Program-made: the position numbers and the translations under genes
Assembly (NCBI GenBank): GCA_902518715.1
Contig: CABYHU010000001.1
Span: forward strand, 62,001-126,000
Source of the DNA: an uncultured SAR86 cluster bacterium
GTDB lineage: Bacteria > Pseudomonadota > Gammaproteobacteria > Magnimaribacterales > D2472
Direction of reading: 5' to 3'
DNA length: 64,000 nt
In this document: positions 5,430-9,268 of the stretch, in pieces
Position numbering within the stretch: the stretch's first letter is position 1
Layout: each line of letters begins with the position of its first letter
The notes under the pieces: model-generated
Database searches by the model: none
What the model saw: the letters and a program-made list of their open reading frames with translations, nothing else
What the model was told of the DNA's origin: nothing

Positions 5430-5843
5430 ATGAAAAAATTTTATTTTTTAATCACTTCATCGTTTGCTCTATTTATTAGTGCAGATACTGTTCTAGTGGA
5501 GGCTAAAAACATGCTTGATCTGGATGCAAAACCAATTGAGGTTATTTACGATAATGATCTTGTAACCTCAGTTTGTCCAAAAGGGTCGGTGGGATGTTTT
5601 ATAAATGATAAAAAAGCTTCAATTTATATTAGGGATGATATCTCTAAAGACCACCACAATGTTGTTCTCTTTGGAATGTATTCCGACTATTTGCAGTTTT
5701 CAAATAATGGACTTATAGATCCTTCATTAACCTGCGATCTAAAGGTTAATTATTTATCTGAAAATAGAAAATCACATCTAGCTAATCTCTATAGAGGTTA
5801 TTGTGATAAAACATTCAAAGGTAAAGTTATTGTTCTTAAGTAG
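5430..5843 (+). CDS. Small exported cysteine-containing protein of unknown function
   Basis: 137 residues. The signal peptide is MKKFYFLITSSFALFISA, with cleavage near ADT. The mature part is about 118 residues with four cysteines (TSVCPKGSVGCF, LTCDLK and YRGYCDK), enough for two disulfides in the periplasm or outside the cell. It is predicted to be mostly beta-strand, with no family I recognise. It has one of the few strong Shine-Dalgarno sequences here (AGGAGAG, 5419-5425), a good promoter and an 11-bp repeat operator, so it is probably strongly and conditionally expressed. A converging PhoD-like phosphatase gene lies downstream, and a hairpin separates the two. Confidence 0.6.
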   Translation: MKKFYFLITSSFALFISADTVLVEAKNMLDLDAKPIEVIYDNDLVTSVCPKGSVGCFINDKKASIYIRDDISKDHHNVVLFGMYSDYLQFSNNGLIDPSLTCDLKVNYLSENRKSHLANLYRGYCDKTFKGKVIVLK

Positions 5844-5850
5844 GGCTTTT

Positions 5851-5882
5851 ATGGTTAGTCTCTAATATTTGAGGCTAACCAT
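5851..5882. terminator. Hairpin between convergent genes, possible bidirectional terminator
   Basis: A 12-bp stem, ATGGTTAG-T-CTC paired with GAG-G-CTAACCAT (one G-U wobble), closes an 8-nt loop. It begins 7 nt after the stop at 5843 and overlaps the last codons of the converging phosphatase gene. Neither strand has a strong T tract after the stem, so termination efficiency is uncertain. Confidence 0.5.
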
Positions 5883-6818
5883 ATTTAGGGTTTTGCCATT
5901 AACATCTTTTAACAAAACGTTTATTTTATTTTCAGAAACTTCAAGCGATCCATAATTTTCTTGATTATATGTTTTACCAATAAGATTAGTATCAGTCTCA
6001 TCAAAATTTGAACCAGGCTTATTGAGTGAAGATGCAGTTATTTCATAGATTCCACTTTCTTTATAGATACCGCCCCTATGTCTATCTCCCGAAACAAATA
6101 AAGTTTTGTCATTATATTTGTTTAGCATATTAAATAGTTTTTCTTTTTCATGTGGAAAATTATTCCATTTTTCATAGGGGTGATCTTCTGCAATTATTTG
6201 AATGGAACTAAATATCATTAAGAAATCAAATTGATCTTTTAGCTCACTCTCCAACCAATTCCATTGAGAATTTCCAAGTATTGTTGCGTCAGGATCTAGG
6301 TTTTCAATATATTTTCCTTTTGGTCCTTTCAACTTAGATCTAAAAAATCTAGTATCTAGAAATATTAGTTTAAAAACTTTACCTTGTATTATTTTTTCTT
6401 CTGAAAAATAAATACCATCTCTATTATGCCTATCATCATCCAAAGGTATTCCCCAAAAATTTAGATATATCTCTTGTGATTGTCTCTTTAGAGGATATTC
6501 TGAGCCAGCATCATTTAAGCCATAATCATGATCATCCCATATAGGTAAAATTTCTACGTTTTTCATCCATTCAGGAAAATTATTCTTTTGTTTTTTATAG
6601 GCACTTACCATTTTTCTTAGAGACCCACTAGGTAAATCTCCATAGACGTTATCTCCCAAGAAAACAAAATAATCCAAGTCTTCTTTTTCAATTGCTTTCC
6701 AAATTGGCTGAGGGTAATCTTGATCAAGGCAAGAACCTAGACCAAATTTAGTAGTATCTGCATTTATAAAAGATAAACTTAAGCTAGATAAAAGATATAA
6801 TTTGATAAAATTATTCAT
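5862..6818 (-). CDS. PhoD-like metallophosphatase, exported
   Basis: 318 residues. It has a signal peptide MNNFIKLYLLSSLSLSFINA, then a calcineurin-like metallophosphatase core: FGLGSCL, FVFLGDNVYGD (metal-binding Asp/Asn), IWDDHDYGLND, YFSEEK and LFVSGDRHRGG (metal-binding His). This pattern matches the PhoD family (PF09423) of alkaline phosphatases and phosphodiesterases, which hydrolyse phosphate esters outside the cytoplasm. ATG 6818 gives a clean signal peptide; a longer frame would overlap the divergent lipoprotein gene, whose start is only 16 bp away. With PhoBR, phytase and GDPD nearby it fits an organophosphate-scavenging set, but no Pho box is visible in the short gap. Confidence 0.75.
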   Translation of the reverse strand: MNNFIKLYLLSSLSLSFINADTTKFGLGSCLDQDYPQPIWKAIEKEDLDYFVFLGDNVYGDLPSGSLRKMVSAYKKQKNNFPEWMKNVEILPIWDDHDYGLNDAGSEYPLKRQSQEIYLNFWGIPLDDDRHNRDGIYFSEEKIIQGKVFKLIFLDTRFFRSKLKGPKGKYIENLDPDATILGNSQWNWLESELKDQFDFLMIFSSIQIIAEDHPYEKWNNFPHEKEKLFNMLNKYNDKTLFVSGDRHRGGIYKESGIYEITASSLNKPGSNFDETDTNLIGKTYNQENYGSLEVSENKINVLLKDVNGKTLNMVSLKY

Positions 6819-6834
6819 GTATTGATTATAGTTG

Positions 6835-7563
6835 ATGATGCCGTATAAAAATTTTTTAATTTCTCTATTTTTTCTTGCTTCATGTAGCAAAGAAGTCTCA
6901 GATAATCAACAAAATCTCTCTGAATTAATGCAACCAAACCAAAACTACTTTATCTCTCAGTATGAATGTACTCTAAGTCAAAATAATAATTTAAATGACC
7001 TTGAGCAATATATTCCCAAACTTTCTCAACTGCTTAAGAATCATAGTTTTGAATATCAATTAGATTTTTATTTTTCAGACAGCCAAGATGATGAAATTAA
7101 AAATTTTATAATCAATGTAAAAAATAAAGAATCTATTGATCAAGAGAATCTTAGCTTATTCATCAATTCCGAAAACAATATATTTCAGTGTCTGCAAAAG
7201 AATAATAATCTTGTTGCAACTACATTAATTTCAAAGCTAGATCAGCAAGATGATATTTTCTACTTAGAAATTCTAGATTGTGAATTTGGCCCAGATTCAA
7301 ACTTTGGAACATTTAAGGTTGCTTCAGATTATTTTTATAACCTGTTGAATGAGTATAGTATTTCTTATAAAGCTGATTTTCTTAACTCAGATTCTAGTTC
7401 AAGGAACTTCTACTGGCATAACTTTTTTAATTCCTCTATAGATAGAGATAATTTTTATGCTAGCTGGATTGATAGTAAAGATTCAATTGAAATAAAAGAT
7501 CTTTTTTCTGAACAATCTGAGTGCTTCTCTTCAAATTCATACATCGGCTATAAAGTCTTTTAG
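6835..7563 (+). CDS. Lipoprotein with two ~100-residue modules, first of three tandem relatives
   Basis: About 242 residues. A lipobox (FFLASC) follows a short hydrophobic stretch, so it is probably a membrane-anchored lipoprotein. Two similar halves follow: NYFISQYECTLSQNNNLNDL (~35-54) and FYLEILDCEFGPDSNFGTF (~142-160), each continuing to a Y..KADF/YQLDFYF strand, an F..WxN-like strand and a C-terminal Cys segment (NIFQCLQ, SECFSSN). The architecture matches the next two genes, with lower identity. ATG 6835 and ATG 6838 are both possible starts. The repeat size and strand/helix rhythm suggest duplicated ferredoxin-like (dimeric alpha/beta barrel) folds, which is inference. Function unknown. 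Confidence 0.6.
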   Translation: MMPYKNFLISLFFLASCSKEVSDNQQNLSELMQPNQNYFISQYECTLSQNNNLNDLEQYIPKLSQLLKNHSFEYQLDFYFSDSQDDEIKNFIINVKNKESIDQENLSLFINSENNIFQCLQKNNNLVATTLISKLDQQDDIFYLEILDCEFGPDSNFGTFKVASDYFYNLLNEYSISYKADFLNSDSSSRNFYWHNFFNSSIDRDNFYASWIDSKDSIEIKDLFSEQSECFSSNSYIGYKVF

Positions 7564-7609
7564 TTTTTAGGTGTTTTTTTTAACTATATATTGATTTTTT
7601 CTTTTGTTC

Positions 7610-7684
7610 TTGAAACAATCTTTGTAAGAGATTTGAAACATCTAAGGGAGAGATCTTTCTCATCAAAATAATTTTTTTTGGAGG
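7610..7684 (+). promoter_or_regulatory. Leader of the 7691/8445 pair: direct repeat and strong ribosome-binding site
   Basis: TTGAAACA occurs at 7610-7617 and again at 7633-7640, 23 bp apart (about two helical turns), and could bind a regulator. A near-consensus GGAGG (7680-7684) sits 6 nt before the ATG, stronger than for most genes here. The rest of 7564-7690 is T-rich with no clear -35/-10 pair and no ORF. Confidence 0.35.
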
Positions 7685-7690
7685 ATATTT

Positions 7691-8443
7691 ATGAAATACT
7701 TAATGATTTTTTCATTAGCATTTTCTTTTAATATTTTTGCTCAAGAATCTGAAAATAAATATGAGCCTGTTTCTAATAAGGCTGAGTATTTTTTTGGAAC
7801 TTTTAACAAAGGCAAAGATCTTGAAGATTTAATGGATTGGTATGATGATTTTGCTGATTGGACTGATGATCAAGGCGATACTTGGGATTCAATGACAGTT
7901 GCAATTTTAAGGCCACAATACAGCAGTGACTTATCATCTCATGATTTTATGTGGGTTAATACTTGGCCAACTCCTACAGCTCAATTTGCTGCTTTAGAAA
8001 ATTGGGCAACGGATGATGATGCCATAGATCTATTTAGCGATATACCAATTACTAATACTGCTGTCGTTGATACATGGCAATGGACGGTATCAGAACCTGC
8101 TGCACTTGAAGCAGGTATGGTAATGTACGCTGCCTATTCTGAATGTTATCTTGAAGAGGGCGTCACCCTTAATAATGTCTACGATGGATATGTTGATTTT
8201 GCAAAATTTGCTAAAGAAAATGGTGATACTGTTGGAAGAAAGCTTATAGTTCCAACAACCGAAACAAATTCTGATGCAGACTTTCATAGACTAATGTACA
8301 CATCAAGCATTTCAGAGATGGGTGTAAATGCTGATAGATTTTGGGAGAAGCTAGCAGGAAGCGAAGCTGCTCAAAATATGCAAGGCTGGGAATGTAAAAA
8401 CACAACTTCATACATAGGGTATGGAATGAGAGTTCCTAACTAA
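7691..8443 (+). CDS. Exported two-module protein, second of three tandem relatives
   Basis: 250 residues, with a signal peptide MKYLMIFSLAFSFNIFAQ. Module 1 (~30-135) begins AEYFFGTFNKGKDLEDLMDW and carries HDFMWVNTWPTPTAQF. Module 2 (~140-250) begins YAAYSECYLEEGVTLNNVYD and carries ADFHRLMYTSSISEMG, then a Cys and TTSYIGYGMRVPN. The same blocks occur in the following gene (SEFFFCNFNEGKSYADL, YDYVMWGNWPSGQDQY). The end SYIGYGMRV also matches SYIGYKVF of the preceding lipoprotein. The length, repeated EFFF/DFMW strands and aromatic WxNxW motif suggest a duplicated alpha/beta-barrel domain. No catalytic motif is recognised. A strong Shine-Dalgarno suggests abundant product. Function unknown. 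Confidence 0.65.
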   Translation: MKYLMIFSLAFSFNIFAQESENKYEPVSNKAEYFFGTFNKGKDLEDLMDWYDDFADWTDDQGDTWDSMTVAILRPQYSSDLSSHDFMWVNTWPTPTAQFAALENWATDDDAIDLFSDIPITNTAVVDTWQWTVSEPAALEAGMVMYAAYSECYLEEGVTLNNVYDGYVDFAKFAKENGDTVGRKLIVPTTETNSDADFHRLMYTSSISEMGVNADRFWEKLAGSEAAQNMQGWECKNTTSYIGYGMRVPN

Positions 8444-8444
8444 T

Positions 8445-9227
8445 ATGAGAAATTTAGTTATTACATTTACAATTTTATTCAGTAGTGTAGCTGCATTTGC
8501 AGAAACATCTGATCAGTACATTCATAGATCTGAATTCTTTTTTTGCAATTTTAATGAAGGCAAAAGCTATGCTGATCTTTTGGAAGAGCAAGCTCCTTAT
8601 GAAGATTTTCTAAAAGAAAAAGGTCTACAGTATAACAGGATCAATTTATTACCAATTTGGGATAATGATGCTGAATATGACTACGTCATGTGGGGAAATT
8701 GGCCTAGCGGTCAAGATCAATACAAGGAATGGGGTGCATACATGAACGATTACCCAGAATGGGCAAGCAATAATGATGTACCGCCTCAGAATGTTGGAGA
8801 TTGTGCTAAGGGTGCTGTATCAATGAGATTTCATTCAGTCCTTAGACTTAGAATTCCTATGGAAGATAGGGATGAAAGACTTTTTACTGATTGGAGAAGG
8901 TGCAAGCTTACTGAGGATGCAAATGTTGCTGAATTAAAGGCTCTTTATGCTAAACAAGAAAAATTAGCTAAAGACTTTGGGCTGAATGGTTATGGAGTAA
9001 GTTTTTTTACACCATACCGAGGTAACCAGACTGGAGCTGATTGGGACTTTCTTATGATGACGCATTGGTATAATGCAGAAAGCAGAATGAATATGATTTC
9101 TTCTTGGGCAGAATTTTCTGATCTTCTTGAAGATTCTGGCATAAGAAAAGAGAGATCTAAGCATATTGAGTCATGTTCTGGTGCTGATACATATCAAGCT
9201 CATATGGTTTACAACACTCATAATTAG
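8445..9227 (+). CDS. Exported two-module protein, third of three tandem relatives
   Basis: 260 residues, with a signal peptide MRNLVITFTILFSSVAAFA. Module 1 (~23-130) has SEFFFCNFNEGKSYADL and YDYVMWGNWPSGQDQY. Module 2 (~145-260) has FTDWRRCKLTEDANVAEL and WDFLMMTHWYNAESRMN, ending with a Cys (HIESCSG). One Cys lies early in each module (FFFCNF, WRRCKL), again as in the lipoprotein (QYECTL, ILDCEF), so the positions are conserved across the family. The ATG lies one base after the stop of the previous gene, so the two are co-transcribed, and a strong terminator follows. Function unknown. Confidence 0.65.
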   Translation: MRNLVITFTILFSSVAAFAETSDQYIHRSEFFFCNFNEGKSYADLLEEQAPYEDFLKEKGLQYNRINLLPIWDNDAEYDYVMWGNWPSGQDQYKEWGAYMNDYPEWASNNDVPPQNVGDCAKGAVSMRFHSVLRLRIPMEDRDERLFTDWRRCKLTEDANVAELKALYAKQEKLAKDFGLNGYGVSFFTPYRGNQTGADWDFLMMTHWYNAESRMNMISSWAEFSDLLEDSGIRKERSKHIESCSGADTYQAHMVYNTHN

Positions 9228-9241
9228 AATTTACTTAATTT

Positions 9242-9268
9242 AAAAAAGGGGCTTATGCCCCTTTTTTA
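9242..9268 (+). terminator. Rho-independent terminator
   Basis: The stem AAAAAAGGGGC (9242-9252) pairs with GCCCCTTTTTT (9257-9267) around a TTAT loop and ends in a T tract. It closes the two-module protein operon just before the tRNA. Confidence 0.9.

Follow-up and report, generated by a model that had tools for sequence, protein, structure and literature searches.

An unnamed family of old exported paralogues with a predicted dimeric alpha+beta-barrel fold in a SAR86 cluster bacterium

Three consecutive genes of an uncultured SAR86 cluster bacterium encode exported proteins built from two similar halves, which raises the questions of what family they belong to, how three of them came to lie side by side, and what they might do once exported. 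We analysed them within a window of 64,000 nucleotides, the whole stretch of DNA studied, and refer to them as P1, P2 and P3. Model-based comparisons indicate that they very probably belong to an unnamed exported family with a dimeric alpha+beta-barrel fold. The complete explanation, in which old exported paralogues form a fused barrel that binds small molecules, is one that we favour with moderate confidence. The features of the locus are as follows.

5862..6818, minus strand: PhoD-like phosphatase, divergent neighbour of P1, within general synteny
6835..7563, plus strand: P1, two-module lipoprotein (lipobox Cys17; cysteine pairs C45/C119 and C149/C230)
7680..7684, plus strand: Shine-Dalgarno sequence GGAGG of P2
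7691..8443, plus strand: P2, two-module exported protein (signal peptide ending FNIFA-QE); module 1, about residues 27-134, without cysteines; module 2, about residues 144-247, with C152/C235
8445..9227, plus strand: P3, two-module exported protein (signal peptide ending AAFA-ET), with a cysteine pair in each module
9241..9268, plus strand: hairpin with T tail resembling an intrinsic terminator, 3' of P3
9288..9363, plus strand: tRNA-Gly (TCC), at the edge of a slot occupied by family members in several species

Gene layout, export signals and neighbours

The three genes lie where the initial annotation placed them, and each has the export signal it described, a lipobox in P1 and signal peptides in P2 and P3. 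P1 starts at ATG 6835, and the cysteine of its lipobox (LASC), Cys17, is unchanged across 27 orthologues. Under a simple rule, 137 of 140 family members carry an export signal, 92 of them as a signal-like start and 45 as a lipobox; two of the remaining three are frames cut by a locus edge or given a late start. One base separates the P2 stop from the P3 start, and these two proteins are homologous by BLASTP (1e-9), while P1 is joined to them by profiles only. The strong Shine-Dalgarno sequence ascribed to P2 is real, its GGAGG being among the three longest matches in the 46 starts checked. The codon index of P2, the highest of the 55 genes in the window, was set aside as a sign of abundance, being non-discriminating because high values are not seen even in the ribosomal reference set. 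A promoter scan of the locus gave signals at background level only.

The divergent PhoD-like phosphatase adjoins P1 in 26 of 30 P1 loci, a frequency that would suit P1 as an accessory of this enzyme in phosphorus scavenging. However, the whole P1 region is syntenic, including an esterase-like gene, a 498-aa protein, prepilin peptidase and gamma-glutamyltranspeptidase, and P1 occurs without an adjacent PhoD gene in 6 of 23 loci. The functional link is therefore weak, a strong link based on the 26 loci being undone by the synteny control, and we regard the accessory role as improbable. An exported 137-aa protein without a Pfam match (5430-5843) adjoins the phosphatase and is kept in some related genomes.

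The repeated module, its history and its distribution

The initial annotation proposed that each protein consists of two similar halves descended from an internally duplicated module, and the profile test on which it had staked this proposal found the halves to be related. When an alignment of 32 relatives was split into first and second modules, the two profiles matched in HH comparisons at P 1.8e-15 over 102 columns, or 7e-16 with signal peptides removed; 12 unrelated neighbour families used as controls gave P 0.02 or worse. The second half of P1 matched the module profile at P about 2e-7, and its first half, for which the sequence link is weak (P 5e-5 to 6e-4), nevertheless matches the module in predicted topology and cysteine pair. 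A profile in which 18 of the 19 rows came from single-module proteins of other genomes recovered, in this genome, P2, P3 and P1's second half. On the module tree, first and second modules separate with 3 changes, where shuffles give 46, and the single modules fall in one group with weak support. This separation argues, at the level of sequence, that one or a few old internal duplications came before the paralogues, in agreement with the half-against-half profiles.

The single-module exported relatives (L161-L176), found in Woeseiales-like genomes and in one further genome, G914, have the same module, two cysteines and a signal peptide; unlike P1-P3 they consist of one module and are presumably homodimers, and they likewise lack a Pfam or NCBIfam name. 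One other candidate single-module protein, L123:31-432, was rejected as a cut two-module gene.

Among 140 non-identical members, a set in which shared ancestry inflates co-occurrence, both module-1 cysteines were present in 81, neither in about 55 and exactly one in 2, and the module-2 cysteines were present in 98-99%. One cysteine pair per module thus appears to be normal, with the two residues gained or lost together. P2 belongs to the members without the first pair, Gly36 and Thr121 occupying its positions, so that the recurrent motifs of the initial annotation stand only in part, its claim of a cysteine in every module failing there. The W/NWP strand that it described is present as DFMWVNTWP in P2 and DYVMWGNWP in P3, but P1 has FYWHN at this site. 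The SYIGY motif near the end does occur in both P1 and P2; because most P1 orthologues carry YRQYK or YKSYK there, the likeness appears to be largely a local coincidence.

Expansion of the gene in tandem, also proposed for this locus, did not hold. P1, P2 and P3 fall in three well-supported, separate deep clades whose relatives are spread over the order, and trees constrained to hold all three together were rejected (p 0.008), as were those holding P2 and P3 together (p 0.03), values that are indicative because the groups were named after the tree was seen. These clades and constrained trees argue against local tandem duplication as the origin of the three genes, which on phylogenetic evidence are three old paralogues. 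In 16 genomes P1 is followed by a P2 relative, encoded on the same strand and no more than 520 bases away, and the interval between P1 and prepilin peptidase, at tRNA-Gly (TCC), holds from none to three further members whose clades vary by species. The local cluster resembles a slot whose content changes rather than a fresh tandem array. In genome G084, a different exported protein, 232 residues long and without a Pfam match (L191:9740-10435), occupies the slot after P1.

The checks of profile matches, copy number and co-location suggested by the initial annotation revealed a family that is widespread in this lineage. This genome holds at least six two-module members, and P2 relatives were detected in 127 of 203 genomes of its order and P1 relatives in 79 of 107 genomes of its family. 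In a class-wide sample the profile matched one genome outside the order, and a search around that genome detected family members in 46 of 119 genomes. A named scan placed the family in Woeseiaceae, and it also occurs in allied families. A phylum sample added one further genome, G914, with a single-module protein. The family is nearly absent from the other proteobacteria sampled, an absence that is only approximate because the samples are partial, and no P2 relatives were found in viral contigs or phage records. Four loci of Woeseiaceae type (L107-L110) share a gene order of ECF sigma factor, small membrane protein, small protein, class-V aminotransferase, family member and TerB, and this order suggests that the family gene is controlled there by an envelope or stress signal.

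Some loci with family members also encode exported proteins of about 235 residues without cysteine pairs (L052:7526-8233, L041:9755-10456, L038:21-713 and L037:1853-2602), which matched the two-module profile at P 2.6e-7 over 196 columns in HH comparisons and probably form a sister family. Small proteins of ligand-binding type occur in the same set of loci, namely SnoaL-like, lumazine-binding-like and DUF1330 proteins and an unnamed exported 142-aa protein (L052:9337-9765, L044:9832-10299, L072:9252-9617 and L035:6561-6848).

Predicted fold and comparison with named families

That these proteins match no named family, as first noted, was borne out by Pfam and NCBIfam scans of P1-P3 and their relatives, which gave no family above the curated cut-off and only sub-threshold chance matches such as Imm75. 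Family profiles found no relative among PDB sequences up to E 10, 2PGC included, and literature searches returned no description of this family. The initial guess of a dimeric alpha/beta-barrel pseudo-dimer was supported by AlphaFold2 models covering P1 (pLDDT 82.9, pTM 0.77) and P2 (pLDDT 91.9, pTM 0.85), in both of which a beta-alpha-beta-beta-alpha-beta unit occurs twice per protein. Two such ferredoxin-like units per barrel, as read here from the predicted secondary structure, are a mark of the dimeric alpha+beta-barrel superfamily (Pfam clan CL0032). The superfamily is thus a known one, and the family within it is unnamed, clade-restricted and exported.

Among solved structures, P2 comes closest to 2pgc, an uncharacterised protein from a marine metagenome (JCVI_PEP_1096685590403), with a Foldseek value of 2e-8 and a TM-score of 0.63, which is the maximum found and only moderate, at about 9% identity. 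The two align over 196 residues spanning both modules at 3.1 A (Z 16.4), a full-length match suggesting that the two sheets of P2 would lie face to face as an eight-stranded barrel. P1 drew the same set of matches, with 2pgc and sulfur oxygenase reductase tied best (Z 14.1); for P2, 2pgc was followed by sulfur oxygenase reductase, putative monooxygenases and heme barrels. Over the two proteins, the matches to sulfur oxygenase reductase had Z 13-14. Solved two-module members of the dimeric alpha+beta-barrel superfamily align over both modules of P1 and P2. Strands 1 and 4 are neighbours in the ferredoxin-like dimeric-barrel fold, and because they adjoin, each cysteine pair is likely to form a disulfide tying strand 1 of its module to strand 4.

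These matches raise the question of catalysis. Sulfur oxygenase reductase is a non-heme iron enzyme, and although both of its modules align with those of this family, it has about 300 residues against about 230 in the mature proteins here, and its iron site is made of His and Glu beside an active-site cysteine, whereas this family has no family-wide histidine and its cysteines come in co-varying pairs. Chlorite dismutase, coproheme decarboxylase and DyP peroxidase have two ferredoxin-like folds per subunit (PMC7611857). They figure prominently in the structural comparison (Z 8-10.7) and would be the models for exported heme or porphyrin proteins serving heme or iron use, a reading also favoured by histidines conserved within single clades, at P2-numbering 203 in the P3 clade and at 124 in the Woeseiaceae set. 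However, their Z scores lie below those of 2pgc and sulfur oxygenase reductase, and they bind porphyrin in the C-terminal module, whereas this family has no family-wide conserved axial residue or counterpart of their proximal histidine; conservation of any histidine stays at or below 65% within the P2 clade and 60% within that of P1. We consider such a heme role very unlikely.

Cofactor-free exported enzymes of oxygenase, isomerase or lyase type, ABM-like and with active sites differing per clade, are a possible though less probable reading. The structural matches include the putative monooxygenases 3f44, 3mcs, 9kdp and 5f9p; Q130, R183, K184 and D197 form a polar set fixed in the P2 clade; and most clades other than that of P1 conserve E32 in module 1. 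Against this, E32 is missing in most P1 orthologues, the ABM Pfam profile matched none of 40 diverse members, and what is conserved family-wide is cysteines and structural residues, mostly C, P, G, D, W, F and Y, the D sitting before strand 3. Since the structural residues are family-wide and the P2 clade has polar residues of its own, the conservation pattern fits a common scaffold with clade-specific pockets.

Proposed role and its meaning

Binding is our first choice, followed by cofactor-free catalysis, with heme or iron chemistry unlikely. In the proposed mechanism, the two facing sheets would form an intramolecular eight-stranded barrel, a fused version of the homodimer of the single-module relatives, whose most likely function would be to bind a small organic molecule, for P2 and P3 in the periplasm and for P1 at the outer membrane. 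The pocket would differ clade by clade, and the proteins would act in binding or buffering rather than as heme or iron enzymes; for this ligand-binding, non-heme and mainly non-catalytic role we judge the chances about even. That fused half-barrels gave rise to a distinct class of exported binding proteins, restricted to certain clades and capturing or buffering dissolved organics, is a doubtful further step.

If this is true, the streamlined marine bacteria of this order, whose sampled genomes are mostly 0.9-1.7 Mb, would capture or buffer organics with paralogues that are each specialised for one class of compound. For a genome of about 1 Mb, six or more copies of a single exported family represent a large investment, and the identity of the ligands would tell which compounds the cells import or defend themselves against. 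A route by which a single-module dimer becomes a fused pseudo-dimer is also visible in this family, which is a possible addition to Pfam.
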